Of a stretch of DNA of 64,000 bases, positions 7,998 through 49,811 are shown piece by piece. Origin of the DNA: Clostridia bacterium (lineage in GTDB: Bacteria > Bacillota > Clostridia > UMGS1883 > UMGS1540); NCBI GenBank assembly GCA_017442155.1, contig JAFSAU010000015.1:1-64000 (forward strand). Reading direction: 5' to 3'. Made by a program: the position numbers and the translations under genes. Position 1 is the first letter of the stretch. Each line of letters begins with the position of its first letter. Under the pieces are notes generated by a model. It was not told where the DNA came from, did no database searches, and was given only the letters and a program-made list of their open reading frames with translations.

Positions 7998-8055
7998 AGT
8001 TATACCCTTTCGTCAGACAAAGCATAGCTTTGCCGTTCTCGTTTTGTGTCCGCAG

Positions 8056-8958
8056 TTACCGGACCTCATCAATTGTAACCTCACGTCCTTCTTTGTAGGA
8101 CTTTTCAATTGCCTGCAGCATATAGACCGGCATTACGAGATTTTCAGGACTGATGGGGCTTTGCTTTGCACGGAGCATTTCCACAAATTCCGTAATTCCT
8201 AACGTTACCAGCGTCTGGAAATGGTCCTCCATGGTCTTGCAGATACAGCCTTTTGTACCGTTTGCCATTATAAAATATTCATCCGGAGTTTTATTATTCA
8301 GTACCAGCGTTATAATTTTATCGGCATATTTTACTGCAACGGTAAAATTTTCGGGGTTTACAGCCGAGACGTAAACACTTACAGGGTCGAAACCGAACAG
8401 CTTCATACAGGCTTCGCAGGGGTGCGAACCATAGAAATAAATACCGTTGTAATCGGCCTCAAAGTTACTGCGGTATGTAACAACGCCGCTCTGAATTTCG
8501 CCAAGCTCGCCGGCATCAATCTTCGTTTTCAGCGTACGGACATCATAATTGAGCTTCAATGTGGAGCCGCCGCATACGAGCGTATTGCCGCTTTCGCGCA
8601 TAGCCTCCAAGAGCGCATTCACATCCTCAGATGAAAACGCAATGGGCTTGTCAATCCAGCAGGGATATCCGGCCCGGATGAAGGGGAGAATATCGCGGAT
8701 ATGCTGGCCGCCATCCCGGTACACCACCATCACGGCATCCACCGTACCCATCATTTCTTCGGGGCTTTGTACAATCCGTTCAATTTTACAGCTTTCGGCC
8801 ACTTCCTTTGTATGGGCAGGGTCATCATCATTTCCGTAAATGGCTGTTACGCGTGCATCGGGAATGAGATACCGCCCTTCGGGATTCGGAAGATTGCAGA
8901 TGCCGGCAAACCGTCCGGCGTGTGAATTGTCAGAGCCTAAAATACCAATTTTGAACAT
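8056..8958 (-). CDS. Gfo/Idh/MocA family oxidoreductase 2 (divergent)
   Basis: This 300-residue protein has an N-terminal Rossmann fold that departs from the GxGxxG form (IGILGSDNSHAGRF). A DKPIAFS stretch near 103 replaces EKP but keeps the catalytic Lys. The C-terminal part lacks the WRGTWE/GGG block of its two neighbours and has FYGSHPCEACMKLFG near 174, with a His in the expected place. It probably acts on a different intermediate from the other two. AGGAGG lies 7 bases before ATG. Confidence 0.8.
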   Translation of the reverse strand: MFKIGILGSDNSHAGRFAGICNLPNPEGRYLIPDARVTAIYGNDDDPAHTKEVAESCKIERIVQSPEEMMGTVDAVMVVYRDGGQHIRDILPFIRAGYPCWIDKPIAFSSEDVNALLEAMRESGNTLVCGGSTLKLNYDVRTLKTKIDAGELGEIQSGVVTYRSNFEADYNGIYFYGSHPCEACMKLFGFDPVSVYVSAVNPENFTVAVKYADKIITLVLNNKTPDEYFIMANGTKGCICKTMEDHFQTLVTLGITEFVEMLRAKQSPISPENLVMPVYMLQAIEKSYKEGREVTIDEVR

Positions 8959-8976
8959 GTTGATGCCTCCTGCGAT

Positions 8977-10014
8977 TTATAAAAAGATTTCCTGCTTCTT
9001 CTGCGAGGATTCGTAAATGGCGAGAATCAGCTCCACGCCCTTTCTGGCAGAATCCAGGGTGATAAAGGGGTCGGTATTTTCGTTTATCGCTTTACATAAA
9101 TCAGTGATTAAGAGATAGTGCGAAATGGAAACTACCTTTGTCGGATCATCCTTTGCACTGACGGCTTCCACCTTTTTCCATGTAGGCATGGGCAGGTCGG
9201 CGCCTTCCAGCTTCCATTCCACAATACCTTCCACGTCCTTTACGATAATACTTCCCTTTTCAAAGTGGAACTCAAAGGTTTCTATCATGCCGGGATAACA
9301 GCAGGTAGAGCCTTCGATTGTGGCGATACAGCCGTTTTTGAATTGTACCAGTGCCATGGCGGTGTCTTCCACCTCAATGCCTTTGCGTACCTTGTTGGCG
9401 CACTTTGCAAAAACGCTTTCCACATCCCCTAAAATCCAGGACATTATATCGATACCGTGTACACCCTGGTTCATGAGACAGCCACCGCCGTCCAGCTCCC
9501 AGGTGCCGCGCCATGCGTCCTTGTCGTAATACGCCTGGTCGCGATTGAATTTCAGATAAGCAGATGCCATTACAGGCTTACCGAACAGACCTTCCTCCAC
9601 GGCTTTTTTGGTAATCTGGAACGGCTCGTCATAACGCAGCTGAAATACACAGGCTAATTTTACGCCGTTTTCCTTTACAGCTTTATCGATGGCATCAATT
9701 TTTTCTTTGGTGATTTCTACCGGCTTTTCGCAGAGAATATGCTTCTTTGCGTTTGCCGCCGCAATACAGACTTCACCGTGCAGTCCGGAAGGTACGCATA
9801 CGGAAACAGCATCCACCTCCGGGTCAGCCAGAAGCTCTTTGTAATCTGTATATACCTTTTTTACATCATACAGTCGTGCCTTTTCTTCTGCTTTTTCGCG
9901 GACGATGTCGCATACTGCCACAACCTCTGCACAGTCACTCATGGCCGCACCCTCCAGATGCGTTCTGGAAATAACACCACAGCCGATAACACCCCATTTG
10001 ATTTTTTCACTCAT
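8977..10014 (-). CDS. Gfo/Idh/MocA family oxidoreductase 3
   Basis: 345 residues from the ATG at 10014, which has GAAAGGAG 8 bases upstream; the reading frame also opens at a TTG six codons earlier, inside that site. The Rossmann motif is GVIGCGVISRTHLEG, followed by CEKPVEI with the catalytic Lys, then the WRGTWELDGGGCLMNQGVHG block shared with oxidoreductase 1. The two differ most in the substrate-domain loops. Three such enzymes in a row point to stepwise redox chemistry on a sugar (oxidise, eliminate or epimerise, reduce). Confidence 0.88.
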   Translation of the reverse strand: MSEKIKWGVIGCGVISRTHLEGAAMSDCAEVVAVCDIVREKAEEKARLYDVKKVYTDYKELLADPEVDAVSVCVPSGLHGEVCIAAANAKKHILCEKPVEITKEKIDAIDKAVKENGVKLACVFQLRYDEPFQITKKAVEEGLFGKPVMASAYLKFNRDQAYYDKDAWRGTWELDGGGCLMNQGVHGIDIMSWILGDVESVFAKCANKVRKGIEVEDTAMALVQFKNGCIATIEGSTCCYPGMIETFEFHFEKGSIIVKDVEGIVEWKLEGADLPMPTWKKVEAVSAKDDPTKVVSISHYLLITDLCKAINENTDPFITLDSARKGVELILAIYESSQKKQEIFL

Positions 10015-10032
10015 CTTTTTTTCTCCTTTCAA

Positions 10033-11205
10033 TCAGTCAACGAGTATCTGATTTTGTTTTAAAATTTCTTGTATTGTGTTAATATCTACATTTTTAACAG
10101 CTTTATTTTGCTTTGCCGCAAGGGCAGCCGCGACGCCGGCCCCCTCGCCGGTAACGCAGCAGGTGGGAATACATCTTGTAATATCCCACATATCGTCAGT
10201 GACGGAAATATTCCGTCCGGCACAAAGAAGATTTTCTGTTTTGCCATACAGCGTGCGGTAGGGGACAGAGAATACCGGCCCCGGCTTTCGCCAGTCAGTC
10301 GTACGTCCTATGCTGTCCGGGAACTTCTTTCCTTCCTCACTCTCGTCCAGCGTGTATGCCCCCACGATACAGCGGGACATCCGCACCGGCGGAATCGTCT
10401 GCATTGTTACCGGCATAATATGCGGATTCCCTTCCTGTTCGCGCACCCGCTCCGTTCTTTCCCACAGTTTTTTATGCAGGAAGAACATCATGTCGTTTAA
10501 ATCTTCTGCTTTTGTGCCGTCGTACCGGCGGTGGTCCTTAAAATTCTCGGAGTAAATGCGGTAGCCGTCGCACCCGTTGCCCCGGTATGCAGAATAATAG
10601 CCCCAGTAGCTGGCAAAGTTTTGTGTAAAGGTCCGCATTTCTTCGCCGGCCATCATGGCTACCTCGCCGTCCCCCGTGCAGTCAATCACCGTTTTTACAC
10701 GCACAGCATCCCAGCCCTCCCGGTTATTCAGTATACAGGTGCTGATTCTGTTTCCGTCTGTGCACAGGTCGATAACCTTTGTGCCGTATAAAATTTTTAC
10801 GCCGGCATCGAGAAGCAGCTTTTCCGCCGCGATAGCGAACATCTGGGGATTAAACTGGACGAGAAAACGCTGTGTATTCCGTTTTTCAACATCCTGATGG
10901 TCACCCAGCCAGGCATCGGGAAAACGGTCTTCATAGCCTGCGGTGATGCTAAGCCGCAAAAGCTCTTCGCCAATGCCGAAAATATGCTGTGTGCCCCGTC
11001 CGTCGCAAAGGGGCAGGAAAACCGTAACAACACCTAAGGTTGCCAGACCGCCAAGTGCCCACTCCTGTTCACAGAGAACAACGGAAGCGCCTTGTCTTGC
11101 CGCCGCAAGTGCCGCGGAAATCCCGGCGGTACCGCCACCTGCGACCAGAACGTCGCATTCCTTTTTCACTGCGATTTCCCGGGCTTTCAGCACGATTGTG
11201 TTCAT
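10033..11205 (-). CDS. FAD-dependent oxidoreductase (FAD_oxidored type)
   Basis: 390 residues from the ATG at 11205, which has AAGGAGGG 6 bases upstream. The dinucleotide-binding motif is VLVAGGGTAGISAALAAARQ, then an acidic end of strand two (VLCEQ) and GGLATLG. Near the C-terminus, NLLCAGRNISVTDDMWD closes the FAD site. This family is common in carbohydrate loci of anaerobes, but its reactions are mostly unassigned. A second relative lies at 42713-43972. The stop is 18 bases from the next start, so it is cotranscribed with the Gfo/Idh genes. Confidence 0.82.
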   Translation of the reverse strand: MNTIVLKAREIAVKKECDVLVAGGGTAGISAALAAARQGASVVLCEQEWALGGLATLGVVTVFLPLCDGRGTQHIFGIGEELLRLSITAGYEDRFPDAWLGDHQDVEKRNTQRFLVQFNPQMFAIAAEKLLLDAGVKILYGTKVIDLCTDGNRISTCILNNREGWDAVRVKTVIDCTGDGEVAMMAGEEMRTFTQNFASYWGYYSAYRGNGCDGYRIYSENFKDHRRYDGTKAEDLNDMMFFLHKKLWERTERVREQEGNPHIMPVTMQTIPPVRMSRCIVGAYTLDESEEGKKFPDSIGRTTDWRKPGPVFSVPYRTLYGKTENLLCAGRNISVTDDMWDITRCIPTCCVTGEGAGVAAALAAKQNKAVKNVDINTIQEILKQNQILVD

Positions 11206-12796: not shown

Positions 12797-15490
12797 TTAT
12801 TGCATTACTGCTTTTTCATAAATCGGCTGACCGCCCGGCGCATAAAGGAGCACCTCAATTTTTTCACCCGGGATGCCCTTTGCCTCCAGGGTGGTTTCCC
12901 ATGCACCGCCGGTTGCCGCTTTACACATTTTTACATCCGTATTTTCACGGACGCCGTTTTTTTCAACGCTTCGGAGAGCCACCACGCAGGCTCCTTCCGG
13001 TACGATTGCACCCTCACCAATGGCAATTCGTATCCGGACAGTGCCGGGCAGAAGTGTCGAAAGAAGATTTCCTTCCGCATCCCGGAATTCCACTGTTTTA
13101 AACGGGATGGTTCCGGTTTTTCCTATCGCCCTGGAAAGTGCTTCCAAGGAAAGATAAACAGTTTCTCCATCCTTTTCCAAGGTTCCGTTTCCGTATGCAA
13201 TTTTTATGTTCTCTCTCTGAAAGCATACTGCTTCTGTACCGTTGTTCAACAGGATGCATGTCTCATCCGGGAATACGCGGTACATCAGCCCCCCAACATG
13301 AATTTCTTCTGTTGCACCCGTCCTGCGGAACAGGCGGTAAGCCTCGCAAAGCTCATCTTCAGCGGCAAGTATATCGCTGTACAGCTGTGTATCCTCCAGC
13401 TTCCACAAAGTGCTGCCGCTTCCCTCGCGGAAGGAGTAGAAGCCTATGGCATCCGCACCTGCGAAAAACGACTGGTAAATCATATGCATTAGCTCATCTA
13501 TGGTTGGCTGTCGACTGCCTGCATATGCAAAGGTCTGTAGGAGTGCATATACAGGTTTTCGGCCCCGGACTGCTTCATTTACCTCTGCCATGTTGGCGTA
13601 TACATCCGTCACCGCCTGTCCGGAGCCTATCGGATACTGGTCGGGCGCAATGATGTCGCAGGCGTTGCCGATGTCCACATAATGCTCTGCGGAATAATGG
13701 TCTGCCGTCATATAGGTCGGATGATAGGGGTCTATGGAACGAATCAGAAGATAGGAGTCGAGAAGTAGCTGCCGCACGTTTTCCGGTTCATTCCGCATCT
13801 GCAGAAACGGCTCGTCCTGAATCATCCAGCCCAATACAGCCGGGTGGTCCTTATACTCTTTTATGATGGCTTCTGTTCTTTCACGGTTTACATAGTGTCC
13901 GGCAGGGAGCATGTTCCCGCCATAAAGAGGAACAAGCACACGAAGCCCTGCTGTTTGTGCCGCGTCCAGAAAAGTTTTCATGGAGCCGGTTTCGTAATCG
14001 CCCATTCCTTGTATTACGTTTACACCTGCGGCTGCTGCGGCCGTCATATCCGCCTCATAGACATGATAACCGAACACAACATCGGAAAATGTGCCGTCTG
14101 CATTTTGCATCTGCCCGTTCTCATTGACAGCACCGGGTGGGTCGAAACAGTAGATGGTTTTTTTCGCCATATCTAAAACCGTACTGCCCTTTATGCGTTC
14201 ACACCGTACTTCGTAGGGCTTTCCTTTTGCAAGGTCTGCAAGAGAGAACGTAAACGTCCCTTCTCCTGCCGTCGAAGTCTGCACGCCGGTTTGTTTCTCT
14301 CCATCCCAAAGATAAAACCGAACCGTTTCCCCGTTTTCCGGCGTGCCGTTCAGATGAAATGTGACCTGACCCGTTTGCCAGGTTGCATAATAAAATGTGG
14401 TTTCATTATCGGTTTTAAGCGTAATCAGCGGTGCTTCCTCTGTTTTATACACATGGAGGCCTGCATAAGAAACCTCCGTTTCACCGTACTTTCTGAAATA
14501 CAGTGAAAGCTCCTGCACACCGTCCGGCACCTTGAAATCATAGCGGAAGTCTCTCCATTTTCCATGGGTATTTCCGAGGGCTTCGGTGGTAAATTCCGAA
14601 GCACCGGTATAGGCAAACTTGAGGACGGGATTGCCGCCGTTTGTCATAAATCTTCCTTTAATAGTATAGGTCTCTCCACCTTGTACCCCGAAGGTCTGGT
14701 ATATATACGGTGCACCGCTTCCGCAAAGCTTTACGCCTGCTTTTGTGCCGTCGGCATTGGGTGAAAGCACCGCAATGGTTCCCCATGCACCGGAGGCATA
14801 CCAGCTTGTCGGTTTTGCACCGCTGACATTTGAAAAATCTCCGTTTATCAATATGTCACTTTCTGCCGGAAACGTTTCTTCTGCCTGCATGTCTGCATAG
14901 GTGCCGTCTTCGTTTAGCTTATGAAGCTGCAAATCATCCCAGTATGCCGTGCCGGTCTGTCCGCCGTTACAGCGGATATACACCGTTTCGAGTGCCGCGA
15001 AATTCACTTTAGGCGTAAAGGGCAGGCGGATGGTTTTCCATTCTCCGTCCGTATCGCCCGAAATGCGCTGTGCACCGGGGGTGTAGAGATTGGAGGTGTT
15101 TCCCTTTGCATCCCGTATAACCGCCCGGAGAAGCGCATCGTTTACGGAAGATCCTTCCGGCACCAGAATTTTAATGGACAGCTCATAGGTTGCATCTGTA
15201 TCAAAGTACCCCCAATACATTGCGCCGCTGATGAGTGCTTGCGGGATTCCGGTGCTTTGGGAGGTGACTGTTTTCAGACCGAGGCTTCCCTGTGCCACAT
15301 ATTCTGCATCGGTTTTAAAATTCCCGTACCACGGGGAGTTTGAATAGCACGACCAGCCCTGGGGTTCAACCCCCACCGCTTTACTCTCTTCAAAACCGCC
15401 GTATTTTACTGTGCCGCTGTATGCCGCCTCTGCTCTCCATATGGGGGAGAGCAGGAGGCAAAGCATAAGTGTAAAAATTAGCTTCTTCAT
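12797..15490 (-). CDS. Secreted multidomain glycosidase-like protein
   Basis: 897 residues. There is a signal peptide at 1-22, two CBM4/9-like jelly rolls at about 25-190 and 210-350, and a beta sandwich at about 355-450. A clan-A-like TIM barrel follows at about 465-740, then a C-terminal beta region. The barrel has HPAVLGWMIQDEPF with the likely acid/base Glu560 at the end of strand four. The strand-seven stretch PVYALLQTF has Gln where retaining clan-A enzymes carry the nucleophile Glu. It is a paralogue of the next upstream protein over modules two to five but lacks SLH domains, so it may be released or held by partners. I cannot assign a GH family. Confidence 0.8.
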   Translation of the reverse strand: MKKLIFTLMLCLLLSPIWRAEAAYSGTVKYGGFEESKAVGVEPQGWSCYSNSPWYGNFKTDAEYVAQGSLGLKTVTSQSTGIPQALISGAMYWGYFDTDATYELSIKILVPEGSSVNDALLRAVIRDAKGNTSNLYTPGAQRISGDTDGEWKTIRLPFTPKVNFAALETVYIRCNGGQTGTAYWDDLQLHKLNEDGTYADMQAEETFPAESDILINGDFSNVSGAKPTSWYASGAWGTIAVLSPNADGTKAGVKLCGSGAPYIYQTFGVQGGETYTIKGRFMTNGGNPVLKFAYTGASEFTTEALGNTHGKWRDFRYDFKVPDGVQELSLYFRKYGETEVSYAGLHVYKTEEAPLITLKTDNETTFYYATWQTGQVTFHLNGTPENGETVRFYLWDGEKQTGVQTSTAGEGTFTFSLADLAKGKPYEVRCERIKGSTVLDMAKKTIYCFDPPGAVNENGQMQNADGTFSDVVFGYHVYEADMTAAAAAGVNVIQGMGDYETGSMKTFLDAAQTAGLRVLVPLYGGNMLPAGHYVNRERTEAIIKEYKDHPAVLGWMIQDEPFLQMRNEPENVRQLLLDSYLLIRSIDPYHPTYMTADHYSAEHYVDIGNACDIIAPDQYPIGSGQAVTDVYANMAEVNEAVRGRKPVYALLQTFAYAGSRQPTIDELMHMIYQSFFAGADAIGFYSFREGSGSTLWKLEDTQLYSDILAAEDELCEAYRLFRRTGATEEIHVGGLMYRVFPDETCILLNNGTEAVCFQRENIKIAYGNGTLEKDGETVYLSLEALSRAIGKTGTIPFKTVEFRDAEGNLLSTLLPGTVRIRIAIGEGAIVPEGACVVALRSVEKNGVRENTDVKMCKAATGGAWETTLEAKGIPGEKIEVLLYAPGGQPIYEKAVMQ

Positions 15491-15491
15491 T

Positions 15492-18400
15492 TTAGTTCAT
15501 TACGCGCTGCATTACAACGGCCGCTTCGGCGCGTGTTGCATTGCCGCGGGGATTTACGGTGCCGTCAGCATTCCCGCGGATGATGCCGCTCTTTACCATT
15601 GCGGAAAGTGCTTCTACAGCATAGTCTGCAACGAGTGCCTTATCGGAGAAGGTATCGAGTTCGCCGCCCTGTCCTTTTTCGTACTGGCGGTGGGCATATT
15701 CAAGACCGCGCTGTACAATAACCATCATATCCTGTCTCGTTATTTCCGCATCGGGGCTGTATGCATCATCGCCTACGCCCTTTAAGATACCTGCCGCTTT
15801 TCCGATTGCAATTTCCTTTGCATATTCCGCATTCGGATCAACATCGGCAAAAACTTCCGTTGCATTGCCTGTAATACCGAGAGCACGAATCAGGAACATA
15901 GCAAAGTCTGCGCGTGTAATGTTCTGTGCCGGTGCGTAGGTACGGATGCCTTTTGTATTGATGATTTCTTCTTCATAGAGGTAATCTACCGCTTCCTGTG
16001 CCCATGTATGATTACCCATATCGTCAAAGTTGCCTTCCATAACGGAGAAGTCCACAGCTTCCGAAGGTGTAATCTTATAAAGCAGTGCGCCGTGGGGGCC
16101 GATTGCCGCTTCAAATGTTCCATCACCCTGTACGGAAGCAGTTTTGCCTGTGCCGCTTACAAGGCTTGCCGTAAATGCACCGATTTTAATCTTGCCGTTT
16201 GCACTCTCGAGGGGAACGCTTACTGTGCGGTCTTCTTCTTTCATGTTCATCAGCATCAGATAGAGACTGCCGTCCATGGAGAACAAATGATTCCATACGT
16301 CGCCCGTGCGGTCTTCATTAAAGAACGTACCTTTATCAAAGATAAACGCATCTGTCAAAAGGAACATTTCCTTTTCCGCAAATTCACACATCGGCTCGTA
16401 GAGAGGTGTATCCTTTACATGCCATCCCGTTTCCTGGAAGGCATAATATCCGATGCCTTCCATATCTTCTATAAGCGCCTGATACTGCATGCTCTTGGCT
16501 TCGTCAATGGTGGGGAGGTAGTAGCCGTTACCGGCCTCTTCTTTTGTTGCCGCGCCGAAGCTCTGACCGAGATAGTGTACGACTTTACGGTGTACATGGG
16601 TATTTTCCAGTCCACCCATCATTTTGTTAACAACCTTGTATGTGCCTTCCATACCATAGCTGGGATGCGAAATCATCTGCATATTTGTGGCATAATGATG
16701 AATTATAAGAAGATCACTGGTTGCCGCCGTAAATTTCGTACTGCCCGTTGCTATAACATCCTGAATAATTACGGGATGCACAGGGTCAATGTCACGGATA
16801 ATTTTATATGCATTTACAAGATCGGGATATGGGTCGGACATATGGAGATACGGTTCGTCCATAACAAGATATCCAAACAGTGCCGGATGGTCTTTGAGTC
16901 CCTTTACCATTTCAATGGTATTTTCAATTTTCCCCGCCGTGCCTGCTGCTTGCATGCCGCTGTACAGAATCAGCGTTGCATACATACCGTTTGCCTGTGC
17001 AAGATCCAGATATGCTTTACCGGTCTGCAGGCTTGCACCGCCGCCCTGAATGACGTTGACGCCCGCAGCTTTTGCAAGCTTCAGATTTTCATCCTGGGAA
17101 AATACGTGGTAACCCCAAACAGGTGTAATCACTTCACCGCCAATTACAATTTCACCTTTATCGTTAATCATGGTCGGGCGGTTATAACGGTACACATCCC
17201 ATACCGCCGTTTCCATTTTCTCTTTACCCTCTGCTTCATAAAGGGTTGCGCGGACCTCGTATTTTTTGCCGATTTCCGCCATGTCCATTACGTCGAAGGT
17301 AAACATAGCCTCGGGAATTGCCTTTACGTTTTTTCGTTCTGCCAAAACGGTATCGCCGTCGCAAAGTGCAATGTCAAATACTTCTGTACCTTTGGGTACA
17401 TATGCGCCTGTATTTAAAGAAGCACCAACTGTCCCTTTGCCCCATTCCGTATAGAAAAAGGTATCGCCGTCAAATCTGACGCGGCTTGCGGTGCCGATGG
17501 CATAACACTGTACATCGTCCCAGTAAATTTCACCTGCACCATACATGCGCATATAGACTTTACATTTCACTGCACCCATCGGTGCTGTGAAGGTACAGCT
17601 CTTCTGATGCCATACCCCGTATGTTTTGCCGAACATTTCCGACTGCGAGGAAATAAAGTTTTCCCCTGCCGCATTATAGAATTCAATCTTGAAACGGGGA
17701 CCGGAGCCTTTTACGGAAATGGTTCTGAGCCATACGGAAACCTGATATTCCATACCGGCTACAACTGCAAAATCATCTTTATAAAGCCAGGGGTTTGCAC
17801 CTGTGGTATCGGAAATGCGGATACATTTGTTTCCGTCAATACCGCCGTCCACAACCTGTACCATATTATCCCATTTCGACTGATATGCCTGCCAGCCGCC
17901 TGCCGGTGCGCCGTCCGCGCCTACCTCTTCAAAGCTTCCGTTTGTGAAGATGTTTACGTTTCCTTCCGGAATGGGCTTTAAATCCGTTGCCGGTACGGGG
18001 GGCTGGTTTTCCACCTTCATTTTGCCCTTATCCGGTTCAAGCTTCGGTGCACGCATATCCACATCTTTTACACGGTTTACCTGTACATCGTCAATGAAGA
18101 TGCTGCCATATGTACCTGAAGTAAAGCGAAGGTAATACTGCATAGTATCCTCAGCAGATGTAACAGTAAAGGTTTTTTCGATTTTCTGCCATTTTCCGTC
18201 CGTATTCCCCACAGGTTCGGAAATATTATACTTTGCACTGGCTTCACTGTTTACACGGGCATACACCTGTACGCCGAGGCGGTCACTGCCTTCTACATGC
18301 TTCATCGGTTCCACGGTACGCACCCATGCACTCATAATGTACTCTGTGCCGACCTCCGGTTTTGTTGCACCGTCACTGTATGCAAGGGTTACATCGGCGG

Positions 18401-39736: not shown

Positions 39737-40410
39737 ATGTTTGTCAGCATTTCTGCCAGACGGCGGAGCGTATCATCCATATTGCCGCAGTAGTCCGAAA
39801 CAGAGATATAGCCGGTAAAGCTACGGGCCAGAAGAATGGAAAGACATTCCTTAACCTCGCTGTTACCTTCCTCCAGCGGTACGGGGATGTCGGTGCCCAT
39901 GATTCCGTCTTTCATGCGGACAAATACCACATCACCGTGGACCTTGCTTTTGTAAAAAGCGGAACGGAAGGGCATGATACCCTGGCGCGAAAATTCCACA
40001 GAGCTGAGCACAAGGCCCGTATCGGGCGTACGGATTTCCTTGTAGGCGTCGAAGGTCAGGCCGTTTTCCTTAGTTGGCTCAAATAAAAGACGGATGCCCA
40101 TACCGCGCGCCATGTCAATAACGGTAGCAAGGTTTTCGTTGCCCGGTGCACAAAGAAGTACATTCTCAATGCCAAGAAGATGGGCACGGCGGAAAAAGGC
40201 AATATAGTCCGCAGTGCACTCGGTGGGGATATCCACAGAGTAGAGCACGATGCGCTGTCTCCGGGCAATCAGACGGTTTCGGATATCCTCGGTTTCTGCG
40301 CCGCTCAGGCAATGCAAAGGCTTTCCGAAAACACCGTCGCAAAGCTCCAGATTGTCAATGCCGTAGGTTTCGTCTTCAAAATTTTTAAGAGCGATACTGT
40401 ATTTAAACAT
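39733..40410 (-). CDS. Sugar phosphate isomerase/epimerase-like TIM barrel, short
   Basis: 225 residues, shorter than usual (about 270). LFEPTKENGLTFDAYKEIR near 115 holds the usual metal Glu, and VHGDVVFVRMKDGI near 173 resembles the HxK/KD strand. The N-terminal strands are abbreviated. It overlaps the AAC(3) gene by 8 bases and the cyclase gene by 4, so these three are translated as a unit. The substrate is unknown; an inosose- or hydroxypyruvate-type isomerase is one option. Confidence 0.72.
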   Translation of the reverse strand: MFKYSIALKNFEDETYGIDNLELCDGVFGKPLHCLSGAETEDIRNRLIARRQRIVLYSVDIPTECTADYIAFFRRAHLLGIENVLLCAPGNENLATVIDMARGMGIRLLFEPTKENGLTFDAYKEIRTPDTGLVLSSVEFSRQGIMPFRSAFYKSKVHGDVVFVRMKDGIMGTDIPVPLEEGNSEVKECLSILLARSFTGYISVSDYCGNMDDTLRRLAEMLTNI

Positions 40411-41182
40411 TCTTTACTGCACCTCCGTTATGATATTTGCAGTCCACGCACCGTTTGTTATCGCACAGGAAGTAGTTTACGTTATCCTGCAGAAGAGCAA
40501 GTCCGATTTCAAACATTTTCGGCACGTCAATCACTTTCACAACCGCATTTCCCACGCGCCCCTCGGTCATGGCATCGGCGCGGCGGAGGTCCTTGGTGAA
40601 GGAGAGAAAATCCCGGTGTCCGGGCGGGTAACGTTTCACAGTCATGGTTTTGCCCTCGTAATCCTTCATATAGGTAGGTGCGGCGAAGGTGTGGTCCTCC
40701 AGATACGGTGCATCCACAAAGTCCTCTAAGGTGTGGAGCGTGGTGTTTCTGTTCATGTCCACTCCCAGCAGTACGATTTTACCGCCCAGCTCACAGAGCT
40801 TTTCGTAGGGCGTGCCGTGGCCGCAGTTGGTTTCAGCCGTATCGTGTCCCGCCGTCAGATAAGAAGCCAGCCGGCCGATGGCCGCGATAGAGTGGGAGGG
40901 ACGGAGGGAGCGGATGGCATTCGGGCGGGTCCGCACCGTTTCGTTAATGATACCCACAACGACTGGGCTTGTGGCCGCATCAAAGGGTTTGGAGCCGTCC
41001 ATGGAGGATACGGCTAATGTGCCCCGGGGACCTAAAACTTCCAATAGTGCGTCCACAACCGCATCCGCGCCGCCTTCCACATGACCAATAGCGGCCAGGG
41101 AGCTGTGCAAAAGAATCAGGTCTCCTTCGCAGATGCCGCAGAGACGGAAGTCGCGCACCATTTGTTCTTTGGTAATTGACAT
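40403..41182 (-). CDS. AAC(3)-fold N-acetyltransferase 1
   Basis: 259 residues from ATG 41182, where GAAAGGATG lies 8 bases upstream. Two earlier ATG/TTG codons would put the site inside the gene. The family stretches are LLHSSLAAIGHVEGGADAVV, RPSHSIAAIG with the catalytic His, CGHGTPYEKL and RNTTLHTLEDFV. AAC(3) proteins transfer acetyl from CoA to an amine of an aminoglycoside or aminosugar; many housekeeping members do not confer resistance. The context suggests a sugar or aminosugar substrate. Confidence 0.85.
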   Translation of the reverse strand: MSITKEQMVRDFRLCGICEGDLILLHSSLAAIGHVEGGADAVVDALLEVLGPRGTLAVSSMDGSKPFDAATSPVVVGIINETVRTRPNAIRSLRPSHSIAAIGRLASYLTAGHDTAETNCGHGTPYEKLCELGGKIVLLGVDMNRNTTLHTLEDFVDAPYLEDHTFAAPTYMKDYEGKTMTVKRYPPGHRDFLSFTKDLRRADAMTEGRVGNAVVKVIDVPKMFEIGLALLQDNVNYFLCDNKRCVDCKYHNGGAVKNV

Positions 41183-41212
41183 AGCATTCATCCTTTCAAA
41201 ATTATACAGCAG

Positions 41213-41241
41213 ATTATATAGCAAAAATAAAATTTTGTCAA
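41213..41241 (-). promoter_or_regulatory. Promoter of the AAC(3)-TIM-cyclase operon
   Basis: Minus strand: TTGACA, 17-bp spacer, TATAAT: perfect consensus. Confidence 0.88.
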
Positions 41242-41263
41242 ATGCTTCCTGACAAAAATGAAT

Positions 41264-42544
41264 TTATTTCCCTAAAGTGGGGAGTTCGGACAAATATTTG
41301 CGGAGAATCTCCTGCGTAAAACCATTATTTTCCATAATTTCTTTGTAAAAATAAGCACTGGGCTTCGGAGTGCGTTTGAAGCTTTCAAAATCCACATCCA
41401 CAAGACCAAAACGGGGAAGAAACGATGTCCACTCATAATTATCCATAAAGGACCAGTACAGATATCCCCGTACGTCCGCACCCATGCGCATGGCTTCGCG
41501 GATGGCATTAAGGTACAGTGCCAGGTACACAATACGAAACCGGTCATCATCACAGCTACAACCGTTTTCTGTGATGTATATGGGCTTGTCGTACAGCCTT
41601 GTCAGCTGTCCTATCATGTTTTCCGGGTACATTTCCTCCAGATAAAAGTCCATGGGAATCATTTTCAGCTTTTTGTGTTCGTACCGTGTGCCAAATCCGT
41701 TTTCGCGGCGGGCATCTATCAGTGTACGGGTATACATATTGATAGCCCAGTAATCCAGGCTGTCCTTCACTTCCGGACAAAACTCGCCGTCGGTAAAAGG
41801 GAGAACAATTTCACCGGTGCGGATGGCATGGAGAAAGAAGCCGTTGGCCGCCCAGTCGTGATAGTCCGCAAGTGTTTTATCAAAGGGGTCATGGTGACGT
41901 TTGGGCGTGTATTGCACCATGGCATGGGCGGTGCTTATGGGTTTGTCGGAATACTTTTTCACAATATGGTAGCCCCGGGCGTGAAACTTCAGGCAGTTGA
42001 TTTTCCAGAGATACCGCTCCTGGCCGAATCCGAGATTAAATTCATTCAGGATGTTCCAGGAATCTACATAAGGAGCGGTCAGCGGAACAATATATTCAGC
42101 AAACCGTTCAAAATAGCGGAGGTTTTCAATGTTCTGAAAGCCGCCTTTTTCAATGAACCAGGCCGGTGTCGTGAAATGAATCAGCGTCAGAAATACGGTG
42201 ATGCCGTTCTCCTTTAAGAGAGAAAGCTCCTTGATATAATGCTCCGTGGCTTCCCGGCTGAACTGCCCCTCTTCCGGCTCGATACGGCTCCATTCCAGAC
42301 TCATACGGTAAGCACGGTGCCCCAGTGCTGTAAGCAGGGCGGTATCCTCTTCTACCATCTCATAGTGATTGCAGGCCTTGCCGGACGGTGCACGGAATTC
42401 GTCGAAATAAAATTCCGGCTTCTGTTCCTCCGCCCAGTTGGAACTATGTATATTATCCCCCTCAATCTGATGACCGGCAGTGGCAGAGCCCCAGAGAAAG
42501 CCCTTGGGAAAGAGGGTGTCAGGCAGAGAAAAAACGTCGTACAT
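41264..42544 (-). CDS. Glycoside hydrolase family 1 beta-glycosidase
   Basis: 426 residues. The GH1 acid/base Glu168 lies in SWNILNEFN, and the nucleophile Glu326 in PIYITENGCS. The N-terminal FPKGFLWGSATAGHQIEGD and HRAYRMSLEWSRIEPEEGQF are family marks, as is the C-terminal WSFMDNYEWTSFLPRFGLVDVDF. It hydrolyses beta-glucosides, beta-galactosides or their phosphates; the typical phospho-glycosidase residues are not clear here. The product is cytoplasmic (no signal peptide). It has its own promoter and RBS AAGGAGG. Confidence 0.93.
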   Translation of the reverse strand: MYDVFSLPDTLFPKGFLWGSATAGHQIEGDNIHSSNWAEEQKPEFYFDEFRAPSGKACNHYEMVEEDTALLTALGHRAYRMSLEWSRIEPEEGQFSREATEHYIKELSLLKENGITVFLTLIHFTTPAWFIEKGGFQNIENLRYFERFAEYIVPLTAPYVDSWNILNEFNLGFGQERYLWKINCLKFHARGYHIVKKYSDKPISTAHAMVQYTPKRHHDPFDKTLADYHDWAANGFFLHAIRTGEIVLPFTDGEFCPEVKDSLDYWAINMYTRTLIDARRENGFGTRYEHKKLKMIPMDFYLEEMYPENMIGQLTRLYDKPIYITENGCSCDDDRFRIVYLALYLNAIREAMRMGADVRGYLYWSFMDNYEWTSFLPRFGLVDVDFESFKRTPKPSAYFYKEIMENNGFTQEILRKYLSELPTLGK

Positions 42545-42567
42545 AAAATCGCCTCCTTTTTTTGGTT

Positions 42568-42596
42568 AGAATATCACATTTGCATATATTTGTCAA
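42568..42596 (-). promoter_or_regulatory. Promoter of the GH1 gene
   Basis: Minus strand: TTGACA, 17-bp spacer, TATTCT. Confidence 0.75.
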
Positions 42597-42602
42597 GCAC
42601 AA

Positions 42603-42628
42603 AGTATGAAAATCCGGTTTTTTGGGAT
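42603..42628. repeat. 26-bp direct repeat, left boundary
   Basis: It matches 45019-45044 at 23 of 26 positions (AGTATG.AAATCCGGTTTTT.GGGA). The two copies bracket an AT-rich two-gene block, so this could be the edge of an inserted segment. Confidence 0.5.
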
Positions 42629-42712
42629 CCAAGAAAAAGGGTTCGAGAAAATGCCCATTCTCCTAAAAAAGTACATCAGACTGTCTTGAAAAAACATTCA
42701 TTTATATCCTCC

Positions 42713-43972
42713 TCAAGCTTCTATGATTGCACCATTATTTTTCAGATTTTTTCTTAACTGTTCAATATCAAGACATTGCAAGTCAGAATCCGATGCTCGC
42801 GCTAGTGCTACCGCAGTGCCTGCCGCTTCCCCCATGCAAGTACAGATAGGCATAATTCTCACCGAAGCTTGTGCTTTGTGTGTTGCAGAAATACATCTGC
42901 CGGCAACAAGCAGATTATCATATTCCTTCGGAAGAAGGCTTCTGTACGGAATCGTATAATACGCACCCGGCGGAAAATAATAATGACTCGTTCCCGCCCC
43001 GGAAGGGTTATGTATATCAATATCATAATTACCAAGCGCTATGGCATCTTCAAATTTTGTACAATTTTTAAGCTCTTCCGCTGTAAGAACGTGTTTGCCG
43101 ATCAGTCTTCGGCTCTCCCGCACACCTATATCGGATGCAATGGAGATGATTGTGCTGTTTTTGAAGGCATCCGATGCTTTTTTAAGAAATTCCACCAGTT
43201 CAAAAATCTGTTTTCTTGCTATTTTTTCCGCTTCACTTACATCAAAAGGATTGCACGGATTCAGCTTTATGACCCTTGTTGTATTCAAATGTAAAATGCC
43301 TTCACCGATGCCAAAAAAATAGAGGATATTTTCTCTCGGATTTGTAATCTCACCGGTCTTTTGCTTCTCTTTATATAATTTCTGAATATATTCCATGTCT
43401 TTGATAAAAAGTTCTATGTCCACACCGCTCATTCTGAAACATGTTGTCATAGGCTGACAATAGCCGTCTCTTTCACGACCGAGTGCAAACGCGCACCCCG
43501 CCAAATAGAACAAATTTCCGTCTCCCGTTGCATCAATGAAAAAATCAGACTTAAAATCAAGTTTTTCACATCCGGCAAAAACTTTAACCGTTTCGAGTTT
43601 CCTGCCTGATTTTTCAACATCGTAAATCTTGGCATGGAACAAAACATCTGCCCCTGCATTTTCAAGCATGGAGTCAAGCAGCAGTTTGAATTGTTCGGGC
43701 GAGAAGAAGCGGTCGTCACAGTTTGAAAACATTTCTTTTTGCACTGCAAGCATTTCTCTGAAAATACCGCCCGAAAGATATACTTTCTCGTTCTTTTCTT
43801 TGCTTGTTGTCCAATACGGCATAAAAGGATATACAAGTGAATTCGACATTGCACCGCCGAGTGAACCGTTTTTTTCAATCAGAAGTACATCCAGCCCATA
43901 CCGTGCTGCCGCAATCCCTGCGGCAACGCCCGTAAGACCGCCACCGGCTATAATCAGATCATATCTTTTCAT
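42713..43972 (-). CDS. FAD-dependent oxidoreductase (FAD_oxidored type), AT-rich cassette
   Basis: 419 residues with the FAD motif IIAGGGLTGVAAGIAAARYG and GGAMSN, and a C-terminal NLLVAGRCISATHKAQASVR closing stretch. It is a relative of the oxidoreductase at 10033-11205. Base composition is clearly richer in A/T than the flanking genes. It is divergent from the PocR-AraC gene, which probably controls it. AGGTGA precedes ATG. The substrate is unknown. Confidence 0.8.
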   Translation of the reverse strand: MKRYDLIIAGGGLTGVAAGIAAARYGLDVLLIEKNGSLGGAMSNSLVYPFMPYWTTSKEKNEKVYLSGGIFREMLAVQKEMFSNCDDRFFSPEQFKLLLDSMLENAGADVLFHAKIYDVEKSGRKLETVKVFAGCEKLDFKSDFFIDATGDGNLFYLAGCAFALGRERDGYCQPMTTCFRMSGVDIELFIKDMEYIQKLYKEKQKTGEITNPRENILYFFGIGEGILHLNTTRVIKLNPCNPFDVSEAEKIARKQIFELVEFLKKASDAFKNSTIISIASDIGVRESRRLIGKHVLTAEELKNCTKFEDAIALGNYDIDIHNPSGAGTSHYYFPPGAYYTIPYRSLLPKEYDNLLVAGRCISATHKAQASVRIMPICTCMGEAAGTAVALARASDSDLQCLDIEQLRKNLKNNGAIIEA

Positions 43973-44043
43973 AATAATAAATCACCTCAAGTACATTCTA
44001 TCACAGAAAAAAATAAAATTCTTGCTATTTTAATACAAACACC

Positions 44044-44072
44044 TTGAACAAATAATACTTTTATGATATAAT
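44044..44072 (+). promoter_or_regulatory. Promoter of the PocR-AraC gene
   Basis: TTGAAC, 17-bp spacer, TATAAT, 30 bases before the ATG. Confidence 0.6.
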
Positions 44073-44101
44073 TTTATCAAAATTGTTAGTAGGAGTTTTA
44101 T

Positions 44102-44926
44102 ATGGAATACATAAGCCTTCATAATTTTATTAATTGCTTGCAGTACGGAACCCGGCTTCATATCGGTGTCCTGTTTTTCGGAGACTACGGAAATGAAAAA
44201 TGCATTTTACCGCACGCACAGCAAATCCACGCCGGAAAAATCTGCACAGAACTTAAAATGCATAAGCACGGATACAAAAGGTGCTATGCCTGTCGATGTG
44301 CCGCAATTCAAAAAGCGATGCAAACCAAAAAGGCTTTTGACGGACTTTGCATCAATGGAATTTACGAATATACAAGGCCCGTTGTGATAGATAATAACAT
44401 AGCCTGTATCATCTACATAGGAAATATTCTGGAAGAAACAAAAGGTCTTGAAAAGCTTAGAAAAAAAATAAGCGGAAAGGAAGAGCTTCTGAACACACTC
44501 GAAAAAAATTTTTCATTTGAAATGTGCGAAACCTTCGGGGCATTAATCGAAAACCATATCCGCATATTACTAAAAGATGCTCCGCCGTCATCTGCACTCG
44601 TTTTCAAACCTCTTATCGAAAACATTAAAAGCTATATTGAAGCAAACCACGAATATGATATAAAGCTTTCTGATTTAGCAAATACCTTCGGGTATAACAA
44701 ACAATATATCGGACGTCTGTTTAAAAAGGAAACGCACATGAACTTTTCAGAATATGTAAACATGCAAAGAATCAGACATGCAAAAATACTCCTGAAAGAA
44801 ACTGCTGATTCAGTCATTATCATATCCATGAGCGTAGGATTTAATAACGTTACGTATTTTAATAAAATGTTCAGAAAATATACCGGCATTACGCCGCTGG
44901 AATACAGAAATAAATCCACAAATTAA
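44102..44926 (+). CDS. AraC regulator with PocR-like sensory domain
   Basis: 274 residues. Residues ~1-150 resemble PocR: a Cys-rich stretch (HAGKICTELK, then GYKRCYACRCAAIQ with Cys61, 64 and 66), RPVVIDNNIACIIYIGNIL. PocR domains bind small molecules such as hydrocarbon derivatives or a metal via cysteines. The C-terminal double helix-turn-helix ends RKYTGITPLEYRNK. It is divergent from the FAD oxidoreductase gene, and both lie inside the repeat-bounded AT-rich block. Confidence 0.83.
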   Translation: MEYISLHNFINCLQYGTRLHIGVLFFGDYGNEKCILPHAQQIHAGKICTELKMHKHGYKRCYACRCAAIQKAMQTKKAFDGLCINGIYEYTRPVVIDNNIACIIYIGNILEETKGLEKLRKKISGKEELLNTLEKNFSFEMCETFGALIENHIRILLKDAPPSSALVFKPLIENIKSYIEANHEYDIKLSDLANTFGYNKQYIGRLFKKETHMNFSEYVNMQRIRHAKILLKETADSVIIISMSVGFNNVTYFNKMFRKYTGITPLEYRNKSTN

Positions 44927-44947
44927 ATCGCGGACAAAAAAGGAGCA

Positions 44948-45014
44948 CATTTTGGGTGGCTTGCATTCCCCTTTACCCCAAACGGCCCAAAATGATGACT
45001 TCTAATCATTTTTT
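44948..45014 (+). terminator. Overlapping hairpins after the PocR-AraC gene
   Basis: CATTTTGGG/CCCAAAATG (44948-44994) shares its right arm with a second stem, AAAATGAT/ATCATTTT (44989-45012), which is followed by a T-rich stretch. The second stem looks like a terminator. The two cannot form together. Confidence 0.45.
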
Positions 45015-45018
45015 CTTT

Positions 45019-45044
45019 AGTATGTAAATCCGGTTTTTCGGGAC
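45019..45044. repeat. 26-bp direct repeat, right boundary
   Basis: Matches 42603-42628 at 23 of 26 positions. It ends 57 bases before the cysE -35 box. Confidence 0.5.
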
Positions 45045-45100
45045 AGTACAGATTGCAGAAAAGAAGAGGGACAGCACGGCTGAAAAAACGGTGGCAAAGC

Positions 45101-45130
45101 TTGACAATACAGCATAGGCTGTGATATACT
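45101..45130 (+). promoter_or_regulatory. Promoter of cysE
   Basis: TTGACA, 18-bp spacer, TATACT, 25 bases before ATG. Confidence 0.8.
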
Positions 45131-45154
45131 CTTACCGTTGGAAGGAGGTAAATT

Positions 45155-45817
45155 ATGTTTGGAAAACTTCGGTATGATATAAAGACAATCATGGAGCGGG
45201 ACCCGGCGGCAAAAAGCGCGGCACAGGTGTTTTTTCTGTATCCTGGACTCTGGGCGGTGATTTACCATCGGATTGCTCACTGGCTTCACAGACACGGACG
45301 GACTTTCCTGGCCCGCATGGTTTCCAATATTGCCAGAAGTGCTACCGGAATTGAAATTCATCCCGGTGCAACGATAGGACGCGGGCTTCTTATAGACCAT
45401 GGCATGGGTGTGGTCATTGGGGAGACAGCGGAAATCGGTGACAATGTGACAATTTATCAGGGCGTGACCCTGGGCGGTACCGGCAAAGATGTGGGGAAGC
45501 GTCATCCGACCATCGGAAATAATGTACTGATTGGTGCCGGTGCCAAGGTGCTCGGCCCTTTTACCGTAGGGGAGAATTCCAAAATTGCCGCCAATTCTGT
45601 TGTTCTCAGCGAAGTACCGCCGAATTGCACCTGCGTTGGTGCTCCGGCCAGAATTGTGAAACGGGACAACGAGCGGGTGAATAACTTTGACCAGATTCAT
45701 TTGCCTGACCCGGTTTCGCAGGAGCTTTGCCGCTTGCTGATTCGCATCGAAAAACTGGAAAAAGCGGCTGAGAGGAAATGTGTCGAAAAAGAAGAAAAAA
45801 TGCTTGACAAACCGTGA
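45155..45817 (+). CDS. cysE: Serine O-acetyltransferase
   Basis: 220 residues. Helical N-terminal domain (~1-70) with [20 protein letters not shown], then left-handed beta-helix hexapeptides: [40 protein letters not shown] and [20 protein letters not shown]. The catalytic His is in DHGMG, and the C-terminus is charged. It acetylates serine for cysteine synthesis. GGAAGGAGG precedes ATG. No cysK is adjacent. Confidence 0.95.
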
Positions 45818-45832
45818 AAAAGTATTTATAAT
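45804..45832 (+). promoter_or_regulatory. Promoter of the antiporter gene, overlapping cysE
   Basis: TTGACA, 17-bp spacer, TATAAT: perfect consensus, whose -35 box lies inside the last codons of cysE. Confidence 0.85.
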
Positions 45833-45884
45833 AGAAAAGTCGGTTTGAAGCTGACAAAGTAAACTATATAAAGGAAGCGAAAAA

Positions 45885-47186
45885 ATGAGCATTCTATTAT
45901 CGGTATCCATCGCCCTTCTTGCGGGGCTTTTAATGACAAGGGCATTCAAACCCCTGAAATTGCCGGCGGTGACGGCGTACCTCATTGCGGGTGTGCTGAT
46001 TGGTCCGTACTGTCTCGGTGCACTTGGAATTGACGGACTGGGCTTTAAAACCTCGGAGGCAGTGGGCGCACTGTCGCTGATTTCGGAGGTAGCTCTCGGC
46101 TTTATTGCTTTTTCCATCGGTAACGAATTTCGTTTGTCGGATTTGAGAAAAACCGGAAAGCAGGCAACGGTTATCGGGATTGTGCAGGCACTGGTGGCAA
46201 CCCTTCTTGTAGACCTGGCCCTCCTTGTGGTACATTTTCTTATGCCTGATAAACTTACAGTGTCGCAGGTGCTTACGCTGGGTGCAATTGCTACCGCAAC
46301 GGCACCGGCAGCAACACTGATGGTTGTGCGGCAGTATAAGGCCAAAGGACCGCTGACGGATTTGCTGCTTCCTATTGTAGCACTGGACGATGCGGTAGGT
46401 CTTATTGTATTTGCCGTATCCTTCGGTATTGCCCGTTCACTTCTGGAAGGTGCAGTGGATATGGTTTCTATCCTTGTAAACCCGCTGGTGGAAATTGTCT
46501 GTTCTTTGGGGCTTGGTGCTGTGATGGGTTGGCTTTTGACCCAGCTTGAAAAAATGTTTAATTCCAATACAAACCGCCTGAATATGACGATTGCCTTTGT
46601 GTTTGTTACTGTGGCACTCTCCATGATGGACTTTCACGTAGGTCCGGTACATATCAGCTTTTCTTCCCTTCTGGTCTGCATGATGCTGGGTACGATATTC
46701 TGTAATATCTGTCCCCTTTCCGAGGACCTGATGGGGGCGACAGATAAGTGGACGTCGCCGCTGTTCGCGCTCTTTTTCGTCATCAGTGGTGCAGAGCTGG
46801 AGCTGAATGTGTTTTTGGACTGGGCTATTGTAGGGGTTGGACTTGTCTACATCATTTTCCGTTCTCTCGGCAAATATACCGGGTCCCTCGCCAGTGCAAA
46901 AATGACGAAGTGCAGTCCTGAAATTTGTAAATACCTGGGTATTACGCTCCTGCCGCAGGCGGGGGTCGCGCTGGGGATGTGCGCCATTGCGGCGGAACAG
47001 CTTCCCGGCCAGGGAAATCTTATTCGGAATATCACACTGTTTGCTGTGCTGATTTATGAACTGTTCGGTCCTGTGTTTACCCGCTGGGCACTGACGAAGG
47101 CGGGCGATATCAAGCCTATGAGCGAAGAGGTCAGAATGCGCCGGCAGACGAAGCTTGCGGCAGCGCAGAAAACTTCCGAGAAATAA
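45885..47186 (+). CDS. Cation:proton antiporter (CPA2 family)
   Basis: 433 residues, about 12 membrane segments. KLPAVTAYLIAGVLIGPYCLG near 25, then GFIAFSIGNEFRL near 68, TAPAATLMVVRQY near 141 and VALDDAVGLIVFAVSFG near 165 with the paired Asp that bind the cation. The last ~40 residues are charged and cytoplasmic; no TrkA-N domain is attached. It would exchange Na+ or K+ for H+ and take part in pH or ion control, which fits the c-di-AMP genes here, since c-di-AMP controls potassium. GAAGCGAAAA precedes ATG. Confidence 0.88.
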   Translation: MSILLSVSIALLAGLLMTRAFKPLKLPAVTAYLIAGVLIGPYCLGALGIDGLGFKTSEAVGALSLISEVALGFIAFSIGNEFRLSDLRKTGKQATVIGIVQALVATLLVDLALLVVHFLMPDKLTVSQVLTLGAIATATAPAATLMVVRQYKAKGPLTDLLLPIVALDDAVGLIVFAVSFGIARSLLEGAVDMVSILVNPLVEIVCSLGLGAVMGWLLTQLEKMFNSNTNRLNMTIAFVFVTVALSMMDFHVGPVHISFSSLLVCMMLGTIFCNICPLSEDLMGATDKWTSPLFALFFVISGAELELNVFLDWAIVGVGLVYIIFRSLGKYTGSLASAKMTKCSPEICKYLGITLLPQAGVALGMCAIAAEQLPGQGNLIRNITLFAVLIYELFGPVFTRWALTKAGDIKPMSEEVRMRRQTKLAAAQKTSEK

Positions 47187-48491: not shown

Positions 48492-48547
48492 GGGTTTTGC
48501 TGTTTGTATACTCTTTTTTTGCAAAACCGGTTTTTTCTGGTTTTCGG

Positions 48548-48576
48548 TTGCGTTTTAAAGGGAACAGTGATATAAT
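48548..48576 (+). promoter_or_regulatory. Promoter of the Arr-like gene
   Basis: TTGCGT, 17-bp spacer, TATAAT. A weak hairpin (GCAAAACCG/CGGTTGC, 48521-48551) that may end the CLC transcript overlaps its -35 box. Confidence 0.55.
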
Positions 48577-48619
48577 GAGTTCGTGTGAAACTTGAAGTTG
48601 TTAAGAGAGGTTAATTTTT

Positions 48620-48934
48620 TTGAAGATTGAATTAAAACCAGACGGAACATGGTATCACGGTTCAAATAAAGTATTTACCGTTCTTCGTCCTGATAGTACG
48701 ATTACACAGTGGGAGGAACTTGCCCGGGCTTTTTCGCATCAACCCAGCCGGCTTACGTATGATGATGCCGGTGTAATCGAACATAATGGTACAGAAAAAG
48801 GATACCTGTATTGTATAGATGAGCATATTGTTGTGGGCGAAGATATAATCCGGCATCCGAAAACGAGTATGGATAAGAATGTTGAGTTTCTAACCAAAAG
48901 ACCGTTAAAGGTTAAACTGATTTGTGAATTGTAA
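48620..48934 (+). CDS. Small Arr-like (rifampin ADP-ribosyltransferase-like) protein
   Basis: 104 residues from TTG 48620 with AAGAGAGG 9 bases upstream. The N-terminal TWYHGSNKVF resembles the F-YHGT start of Arr. The C-terminal GYLYCIDEH..., then HPKTSMDKNVEFLTKRPLKV resembles the GRIYVVEP and NPT..R..HPLRV part of Arr. Arr transfers ADP-ribose to rifamycins. The protein is shorter than Arr by about 35 residues, with the middle beta region reduced. Resistance is not implied; it may be a housekeeping ADP-ribosyltransferase or a degenerate member. Confidence 0.6.
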   Translation: MKIELKPDGTWYHGSNKVFTVLRPDSTITQWEELARAFSHQPSRLTYDDAGVIEHNGTEKGYLYCIDEHIVVGEDIIRHPKTSMDKNVEFLTKRPLKVKLICEL

Positions 48935-49025
48935 TTTTAATTTATCTGTTTTCTGTTTTCGATGCGGAAAAAATTGTTACAGTATAACAAATTGAAAGGA
49001 AAGATTTCAATTCAAGAGGTACGTC

Positions 49026-49811
49026 ATGTTAAAAAAGGCTGAAGTTTTAAAACAGCTTGCACAATTCAGTAAGGCCAGAGGAAAGGTTGTTACGGTACAC
49101 ACATCCCTGAAAGCAGTAGGAGCCATTGAGGGCGGCGGTGAAACGCTTCTCAGTGCTTTGATTGAATATTTTACGGCGGACGGAGGACTTTTATGCATAC
49201 CTACGCATACATGGGAATCCGATATCTATGATTTGCGAAAGGCAGAAAGCTGCCTGGGCGTACTGCCGTGCCTTGCGGCGGCACATCCGGATGCTTTGCG
49301 GACCATGCACCCTACGCATTCAATGGCGGTGTTCGGTGATACAGAAGGGGCACAGGAATTTGCCAAAAATGACGAGTTTGCAAACAGCCCGGCGGATCCT
49401 GCCGGATGCTATGGCAAGCTGTATGAACAGGATGGGTATGTACTTTTAATCGGTGTTGGCCAGGAAAAAAATACGTTTATCCATTGCATTGAGGAAATGC
49501 TGGGGGTTGCGGATCGTCTTACAGAACAGAAGGTGGAAAAAACCATTATGCATAAGGACGGCACCGAAGAAAAACGGTCGCTGTATTGGTTTGCGGATAC
49601 GCTTCCCGATGTATCAGAGAAATTCCAGAAGTTTGAGGCTCCGTTTCGCCATTTTGGATGTATTCAGGATGGAATTCTGGGCAATGCGCCTGTGCAGATG
49701 TGCAGTGCGAGGAAAATGAAAGAGGTTCTGGAGCTGATATATACCAACAACAAAGGCGGAGAGCTTTTGGCAGATGACCTGCCTGTGGATGAGAAATTAT
49801 ATTTGAAATAA
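49026..49811 (+). CDS. AAC(3)-fold N-acetyltransferase 2
   Basis: 261 residues. VVTVHTSLKAVGAIEGGGET, MHPTHSMAVFGDTEGAQEF with the catalytic His, and LLIGVGQEKNTFIHCIEEM show the AAC(3) fold. It is a distant paralogue of the protein at 40403-41182. Near YEQDGYVLLIGV, the GTPYEKL motif is changed to CYGKLYEQDG, so the substrate site differs. It heads a six-gene operon. AAGAGG lies 6 bases before ATG. A short inverted repeat (AATTGAA/TTCAATT) lies in the leader. Confidence 0.83.
   Translation: MLKKAEVLKQLAQFSKARGKVVTVHTSLKAVGAIEGGGETLLSALIEYFTADGGLLCIPTHTWESDIYDLRKAESCLGVLPCLAAAHPDALRTMHPTHSMAVFGDTEGAQEFAKNDEFANSPADPAGCYGKLYEQDGYVLLIGVGQEKNTFIHCIEEMLGVADRLTEQKVEKTIMHKDGTEEKRSLYWFADTLPDVSEKFQKFEAPFRHFGCIQDGILGNAPVQMCSARKMKEVLELIYTNNKGGELLADDLPVDEKLYLK

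Follow-up and report, generated by a model that had tools for sequence, protein, structure and literature searches.

A block of 2.4 kb (positions 42603-45044) in the 2.43-Mb genome of a Clostridia bacterium (G000) is probably a horizontally acquired small variable segment which carries a regulator-enzyme unit and would have entered the genome with no mobility gene of its own, with the 26-base direct repeats near its edges as a by-product or remnant of that event. The block is part of the window, the whole stretch of 64,000 nucleotides that was analysed, and lies between the genes for a GH1 glycosidase and a serine O-acetyltransferase (cysE). At this site G000 differs in length from one sister genome of the same genus (G002), a second sister genome (G001) holds a different insert, the block contrasts in composition with its surroundings, and its pair of genes recurs elsewhere.

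Gene content and composition of the block

The native left flank is the GH1 gene (41264-42544, minus strand, PF00232), which has copies of 93% identity in G001 and 86% in G002, and the native right flank is cysE (45155-45817, plus strand; TIGR01172, E 1.1e-73), which is 97% and 94% identical in the same two genomes. A consensus scan places a promoter-like site in front of each of them, both pointing away from the block: TTGACA/TATTCT on the minus strand at 42568-42596 for GH1, which is the left limit of the slot, and TTGACA/TATACT on the plus strand at 45101-45130 for cysE, which is its right limit. The plus-strand TTGTCAA of the former and the TTGAC and TATACT of the latter are kept in both sister genomes. 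Between these limits the block holds two substantial genes, a FAD-dependent oxidoreductase of 419 amino acids (42713-43972, minus strand) and an AraC-type transcriptional regulator of 274 amino acids with a PocR domain (44102-44926, plus strand), which are divergent and separated by 129 bp. The initial annotation had described an AT-rich block with just these two kinds of divergent genes and no transposase or integrase inside, and this description holds in full: the inner GC content is 0.39 against 0.48 outside, and no recombinase, transposase or integrase gene is found in the block among its ORFs or by Pfam. The two genes have third-position GC contents (GC3) of 0.38 and 0.39, where the median is 0.49, and both lie at the 6th-8th percentile of 292 ORFs of at least 200 amino acids, a mechanical list in which some entries are not genes.

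The remaining sequence offers few features. The spacer after the oxidoreductase stop (42629-42712) contains, when read by eye, a GGAGG and an ATG 12 codons before a stop, which could just possibly be the truncated beginning of another gene of the operon; no similar start was seen by eye among the printed downstream ORFs. A hairpin with a T-rich tail lies 3' of the regulator (44941-45018, plus strand, -21.7 kcal/mol) and is a weak candidate for a terminator, as its z-score is -1.59, 17 of 200 shuffles fold equally well and it is absent from the list of the terminator scan. No RNA family reached its gathering score in 40000-47000.

The oxidoreductase is a member of PF12831 (FAD_oxidored), which it matches over model positions 1-416 of 416 with 368.6 bits (gathering score 27, E 7.3e-110). 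Its solved relatives at E <= 1e-5 comprise one thioredoxin reductase, matched by residues 3-44. The regulator contains a PocR domain (PF10114, 33.8 bits, gathering score 23.9, E 3.5e-8), of which only model positions 38-122 of 162 are spanned, and an AraC helix-turn-helix (HTH) domain (PF12833, 78.9 bits, gathering score 33.6, E 3.5e-22), and thus belongs to the PocR-AraC regulators, although it falls outside the NCBIfam equivalog TransRegPocR (72.8 bits against a cut-off of 500, residues 174-272 only). PocR regulators are known from the context of the propanediol operon. The present protein resembles PocR-AraC regulators in its domain order and its divergent placement beside a metabolic gene and differs in its target, which would be the PF12831 oxidoreductase; it is likely to respond to a small molecule and to activate the divergent gene. 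The oxidoreductase has no PHROG match at 1e-5 and the regulator matches seven PHROGs that are annotated as regulator, DNA-binding or unknown, so that by Pfam and PHROG the block is no known mobile element or phage, as expected of a small variable segment.

The distribution of the unit is patchy. On plasmids the regulator has homologues in 2074 records, all below 60% identity and the eight listed at about 25%, and a search of a contig collection returned five distant loci labelled Clostridia, four of 29-34% identity and one short match. Neither G001 nor G002 has the oxidoreductase at E <= 1e-60, and the same is true of G004 and G005, which represent two other genera. A third genus (G003), a member of its own family, carries a copy with 53% identity over residues 1-348, where it is cut by the end of the contig. 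Among 391 genomes of the class, an even draw from a larger group, 37 contain the oxidoreductase at E <= 1e-110, and the best relatives belong to other families (f10, f29 and f19); no donor with a near-identical sequence was found among them, the nearest being 62% identical. In a tree of 32 rows the protein groups with families f10, f29, f19, f16, f20 and f7, and the G003 copy lies across a split supported at 100/100. This separation from the copy of its own family fits horizontal transfer.

Loci were available for 30 of the 43 oxidoreductase matches, the present one included. At 13 of the 29 others (L133-L161), from eight families, a regulator-like protein is divergent from the oxidoreductase and within about 300 bp of it; at L133 the distance is 1.3 kb, three loci (L134, L151 and L157) have only HTH-type matches, in another layout, and the remaining 12 have no regulator-like protein within the stretch of up to 1.5 kb examined on each side. 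The divergent layout is also found in G003 and G022, where Pfam confirms the PocR domain. The pair thus recurs as a unit, and its scattered occurrence agrees with horizontal spread. In G027 a PocR-like gene is divergent from what by eye appears to be a GH3 gene. A literature search, from which subscription journals were mostly absent, returned nothing on PF12831 FAD-dependent oxidoreductases, alone or with PocR/AraC regulators, and nothing on AraC insertion slots.

The slot in sister genomes and comparable inserts

The genus is represented by three genomes including G000, all draft assemblies, and the junctions are those of the assemblies alone. In G002 the GH1 and cysE genes are adjacent: the alignment gap is 94 bp, the start codons are 138 bp apart and the two -35-like boxes are separated by 8 bp. 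In G001 the slot is occupied by an AraC gene with an AraC_binding domain, a glycyl-radical enzyme and the remnant of a glycyl-radical activase (L047, 9071-9160), which matches TIGR02494 at positions 2-26 of 293 (E 2.5e-6) with about 25 recognisable residues. The truncated activase suggests a piece of an operon more than a neat cassette, and the enzyme in this slot would have to rely on another activase. The inserts of G000 and G001 share no DNA similarity at E 0.01. The possibility that all relatives have the same block in the same place, which would have spoken against an insertion, is thus not borne out, and the segment is absent or different in relatives between conserved flanks in the manner of small variable segments. 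The empty site that the initial annotation had anticipated exists in G002; the single repeat copy expected within it is missing, although this fast-changing spacer could have lost one. That both inserts lie between the promoter boxes is to be expected if an insert elsewhere in the 138-bp gap would disturb one of the two genes.

The GH1 identities suggest that G002 is the outgroup, which makes the empty state plausibly the older one and the block a probable gain. With only three genomes in the genus this order is polarised by parsimony alone, and G003, G004 and G005 offer no further check on polarity as none of them has a GH1 match within 1.5 kb of cysE.

Comparable inserts were sought by aligning contig C4, 160 kb of C12 and 84 kb of C11 of G000 with stretches of G001 and G002 (23 alignment blocks of at least 250 bp, with a small overlap). 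Six distinct loci in this syntenic sample differ by more than 500 bp, and three of them have inserts with AraC and catabolic genes, four inserts in total as the studied slot carries two. In the gap between cysE and an antiporter gene of G001 (L047, G001:C49) lies an AT-rich second insert with AraC, EamA and melibiase-like genes, around which two pairs of repeats (9875-9922 / 14622-14668 and 9923-10137 / 15627-16058) are duplicated native sequence comprising the end of cysE, the promoter of the antiporter gene and pieces of that gene. Such pieces lie at the left edge of the insert, which has the look of an insertion with tandem duplication. The other locus, G000:C12:155754-158554 (L114), is an AT-rich insert in which an AraC gene is divergent from a 590-residue protein that by eye appears to be a glycosidase, and it corresponds to a 24-bp gap in G002. 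Flanking repeats with a score of at least 17 occur at two of the four inserts, the present block counted; the two without them, the G001 insert in the studied slot and the one in C12, reach best scores of 7 and 8. As repeats are missing at two inserts and consist of duplicated native sequence at another, they do not mark inserts of this kind in general.

A scan of the wider stretches of the three genomes yielded 136 pairs of direct repeats with a score of at least 17, many of which lie by eye in paralogous or repeat-rich genes. Two pairs were inspected closely, one within genes and one promoter-like and placed around a small gene pair. The latter consists of 46-base repeats 2.6 kb apart (G000:C4:198174-198219 and 200819-200864; L105, L106), between which lie an apparent sigma factor gene and a partner (by eye).

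The AraC background of G000 is large, with 66 matches to the AraC HTH model, 65 of them above the cut-off. In the sampled contigs, GC3 is below 0.40 in 4 of 12 AraC ORFs against 23 of 280 others (Fisher p 0.017, Mann-Whitney p 0.0015); the 12 include the present block and derive from 13 places, one of which was dropped for having no ORF of 200 amino acids, and the line at 0.40 was set after the values of the block had been seen. The AT-richness of these ORFs hints, in a small sample, that AraC units are often recent arrivals.

Some further features of the window are recorded here. The ORF at 40403-41224 matches the aminoglycoside 3-N-acetyltransferase family and 49026-49811 looks similar by eye, which does not imply a resistance function. 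The segment 48469-52708 is replaced in G001 by what by eye appears to be a phosphate transporter gene, and 48500-48999 has a GC content of 0.37. Two diverged copies 2008 bp apart at 7438-9744, with 68 and 24 bases of near identity, are probably duplicated genes. A YqfD sporulation gene is present, which together with the distant relatives of the regulator labelled Clostridia hints at a Clostridia-like bacterium.

The 26-base direct repeats and alternative readings

The left (42603-42628) and right (45019-45044) copies of the repeat, both read on the plus strand, match at 23 of 26 bases, as the initial annotation had reported. Compared without gaps, the two spacers share a best repeat of score 19, a value that is not approached in 300 letter shuffles of the spacers (13 at most), and in 100 Markov-shuffled windows a direct repeat reaches at least 17 in eight and at least 19 in none. 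An 18-base core is found with up to three mismatches at 23 places in the genome, the two block copies at zero and the other 21 at two or three. A backwards-pattern control gives three places, and the rate in shuffled windows (mean 0.23 per 64 kb) amounts by arithmetic to about nine per genome, so that the weak matches are somewhat commoner than chance; this excess of 21 against 3 is modest. A blastn search with the right spacer returned the left repeat as the sole other match in the genome below E 0.1, and the two copies are the only close ones in G000. A dispersed element is thereby not supported, nor is the common terminator that the initial annotation had named as a ground for doubt, with no other place of the core below two mismatches. 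Besides the two copies, the 25-base form has nothing below five mismatches within 1.25 Mb of retrieved loci, overlaps included, where the best other matches, L133-L161 included, have five to six; one of six mismatches lies in L137, a related oxidoreductase locus. Flanking direct repeats around the pairs of other families in L133-L161 are mainly paralogous or weak matches. A phage site is likewise unsupported, as the core does not occur in exact form in the viral contigs searched, and no likeness to a dif/Xer-like site was apparent.

The similarity around both repeats ends sharply on each side, which bears on a special case of the preferred reading. Incoming DNA might have settled between two copies of the native spacer, of which 26 bases are still recognisable, a merodiploid-type duplication as described for transformation in pneumococcus in the available text of PMC3784515. 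The second insert of G001, with duplicated native sequence on either side of other DNA and antiporter remnants, is of this form; in the available account the pneumococcal duplication arises between existing repeats, and the present case is known from sequence alone. The sharp ends of similarity argue against such a remnant, as do the spacers of G001 and G002, which show nothing alike, and it is an unlikely though conceivable origin of the repeats.

It is improbable that the block is a non-autonomous mobile element whose repeats serve an enzyme from another locus as attachment sites or target duplications. The repeats do lie near both edges, the genome contains no further close copy, and in G022, from another family of the order, a tyrosine-recombinase gene (L065, 8236-9132) is located 1.3 kb from the homologous pair. 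However, the block holds no recombinase and the empty site of G002 no repeat copy, as either would be expected of a site-specific integrative element, the viral contigs lack the core, the fetched loci including those of related pairs hold nothing close, and two of the four AraC-carrying inserts are without repeats. Nor does it have the terminal inverted repeats and transposase of a transposon: exact inverted matches between the spacers do not exceed 10 bases, and the one inverted pair of 18 bases (83%; 42545-42562 / 44936-44953) has its left arm in the ribosome-site region of GH1, outside the left repeat. The proposal of a small inserted metabolic unit, possibly moved by recombination between the repeats, can accordingly be divided. 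Insertion is upheld by the empty site in G002, the other insert in G001, the atypical composition, the patchy distribution and a tree at odds with kinship; movement by the repeats is unsupported, because G002 has no copy, the block no recombinase gene and the related pairs no such repeat beside them.

An ancestral block that disappeared from G002, perhaps through deletion between its repeats, and gave way to another insert in G001 is similarly doubtful. Deletion between short repeats is given as a source of such variation in the available text of Touzain et al. 2010 (PMC2884548), but it would at first leave one copy behind, which the G002 spacer does not show, and the atypical composition and the position in the tree away from the own-family copy do not fit an ancestral block. 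Slightly more doubtful is that the repeats are a regulatory site shared by the two promoters and unrelated to the insertion. The left copy lies 6 bases upstream of the -35-like box of GH1 and the right copy 56 bases upstream of that of cysE, and the core contains a CCGG-centred quasi-palindrome (seen in the list of inverted matches) and has the 21 weak matches against three in the control; yet an operator of 25 asymmetric bases would be long, the core recurs nowhere else below two mismatches, and neither GH1 nor cysE is preceded by it in G001 or G002. Least probable is a genus-wide system in which back-to-back promoter gaps are docking slots that exchange divergent AraC-enzyme cassettes, the 26-base repeat being the recombination site for an enzyme encoded elsewhere.

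Probable integration of the block and its significance

In the preferred reading of an acquired variable segment, a foreign fragment with the divergent PocR-AraC sensor and FAD oxidoreductase would have entered the genome and settled in the few bases that separate the back-to-back promoters of GH1 and cysE, where it breaks neither gene. Integration would most likely have occurred by illegitimate or homology-assisted recombination, and the repeats may be a short duplication made at the junctions or the decayed remnant of a larger one. Against this reading stands that the repeats are tied to no mechanism and that 26 bases exceed the usual length of target-site duplications. That the activase in G001 is truncated, and that native sequence is duplicated next to it, suggests imprecise joining of fragments in this genus. 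As a mechanism, this is nothing new: for small variable segments, illegitimate and also homology-assisted recombination are proposed in the available text of PMC2884548, which gives 10-18% of segments as flanked by direct repeats and 66-94% of these repeats as shorter than 30 bp. The block resembles the segments, or microdiversity loci, of that text in that it is short, lies between conserved genes, is missing or differs among relatives and, like most of them, is not a known mobile element. Unlike them, it is compared between species of one genus rather than within a species, and it comprises a complete regulator-enzyme unit.

The slot, vacant in one sister species and otherwise occupied in another, offers a clear example of a self-contained regulator-enzyme unit, and the probable acquisition of such a pair is a common form of variation among bacterial genomes. 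Counts of inserts throughout the genus would show how such a bacterium acquires regulated genes for catabolism with no mobile elements in sight.
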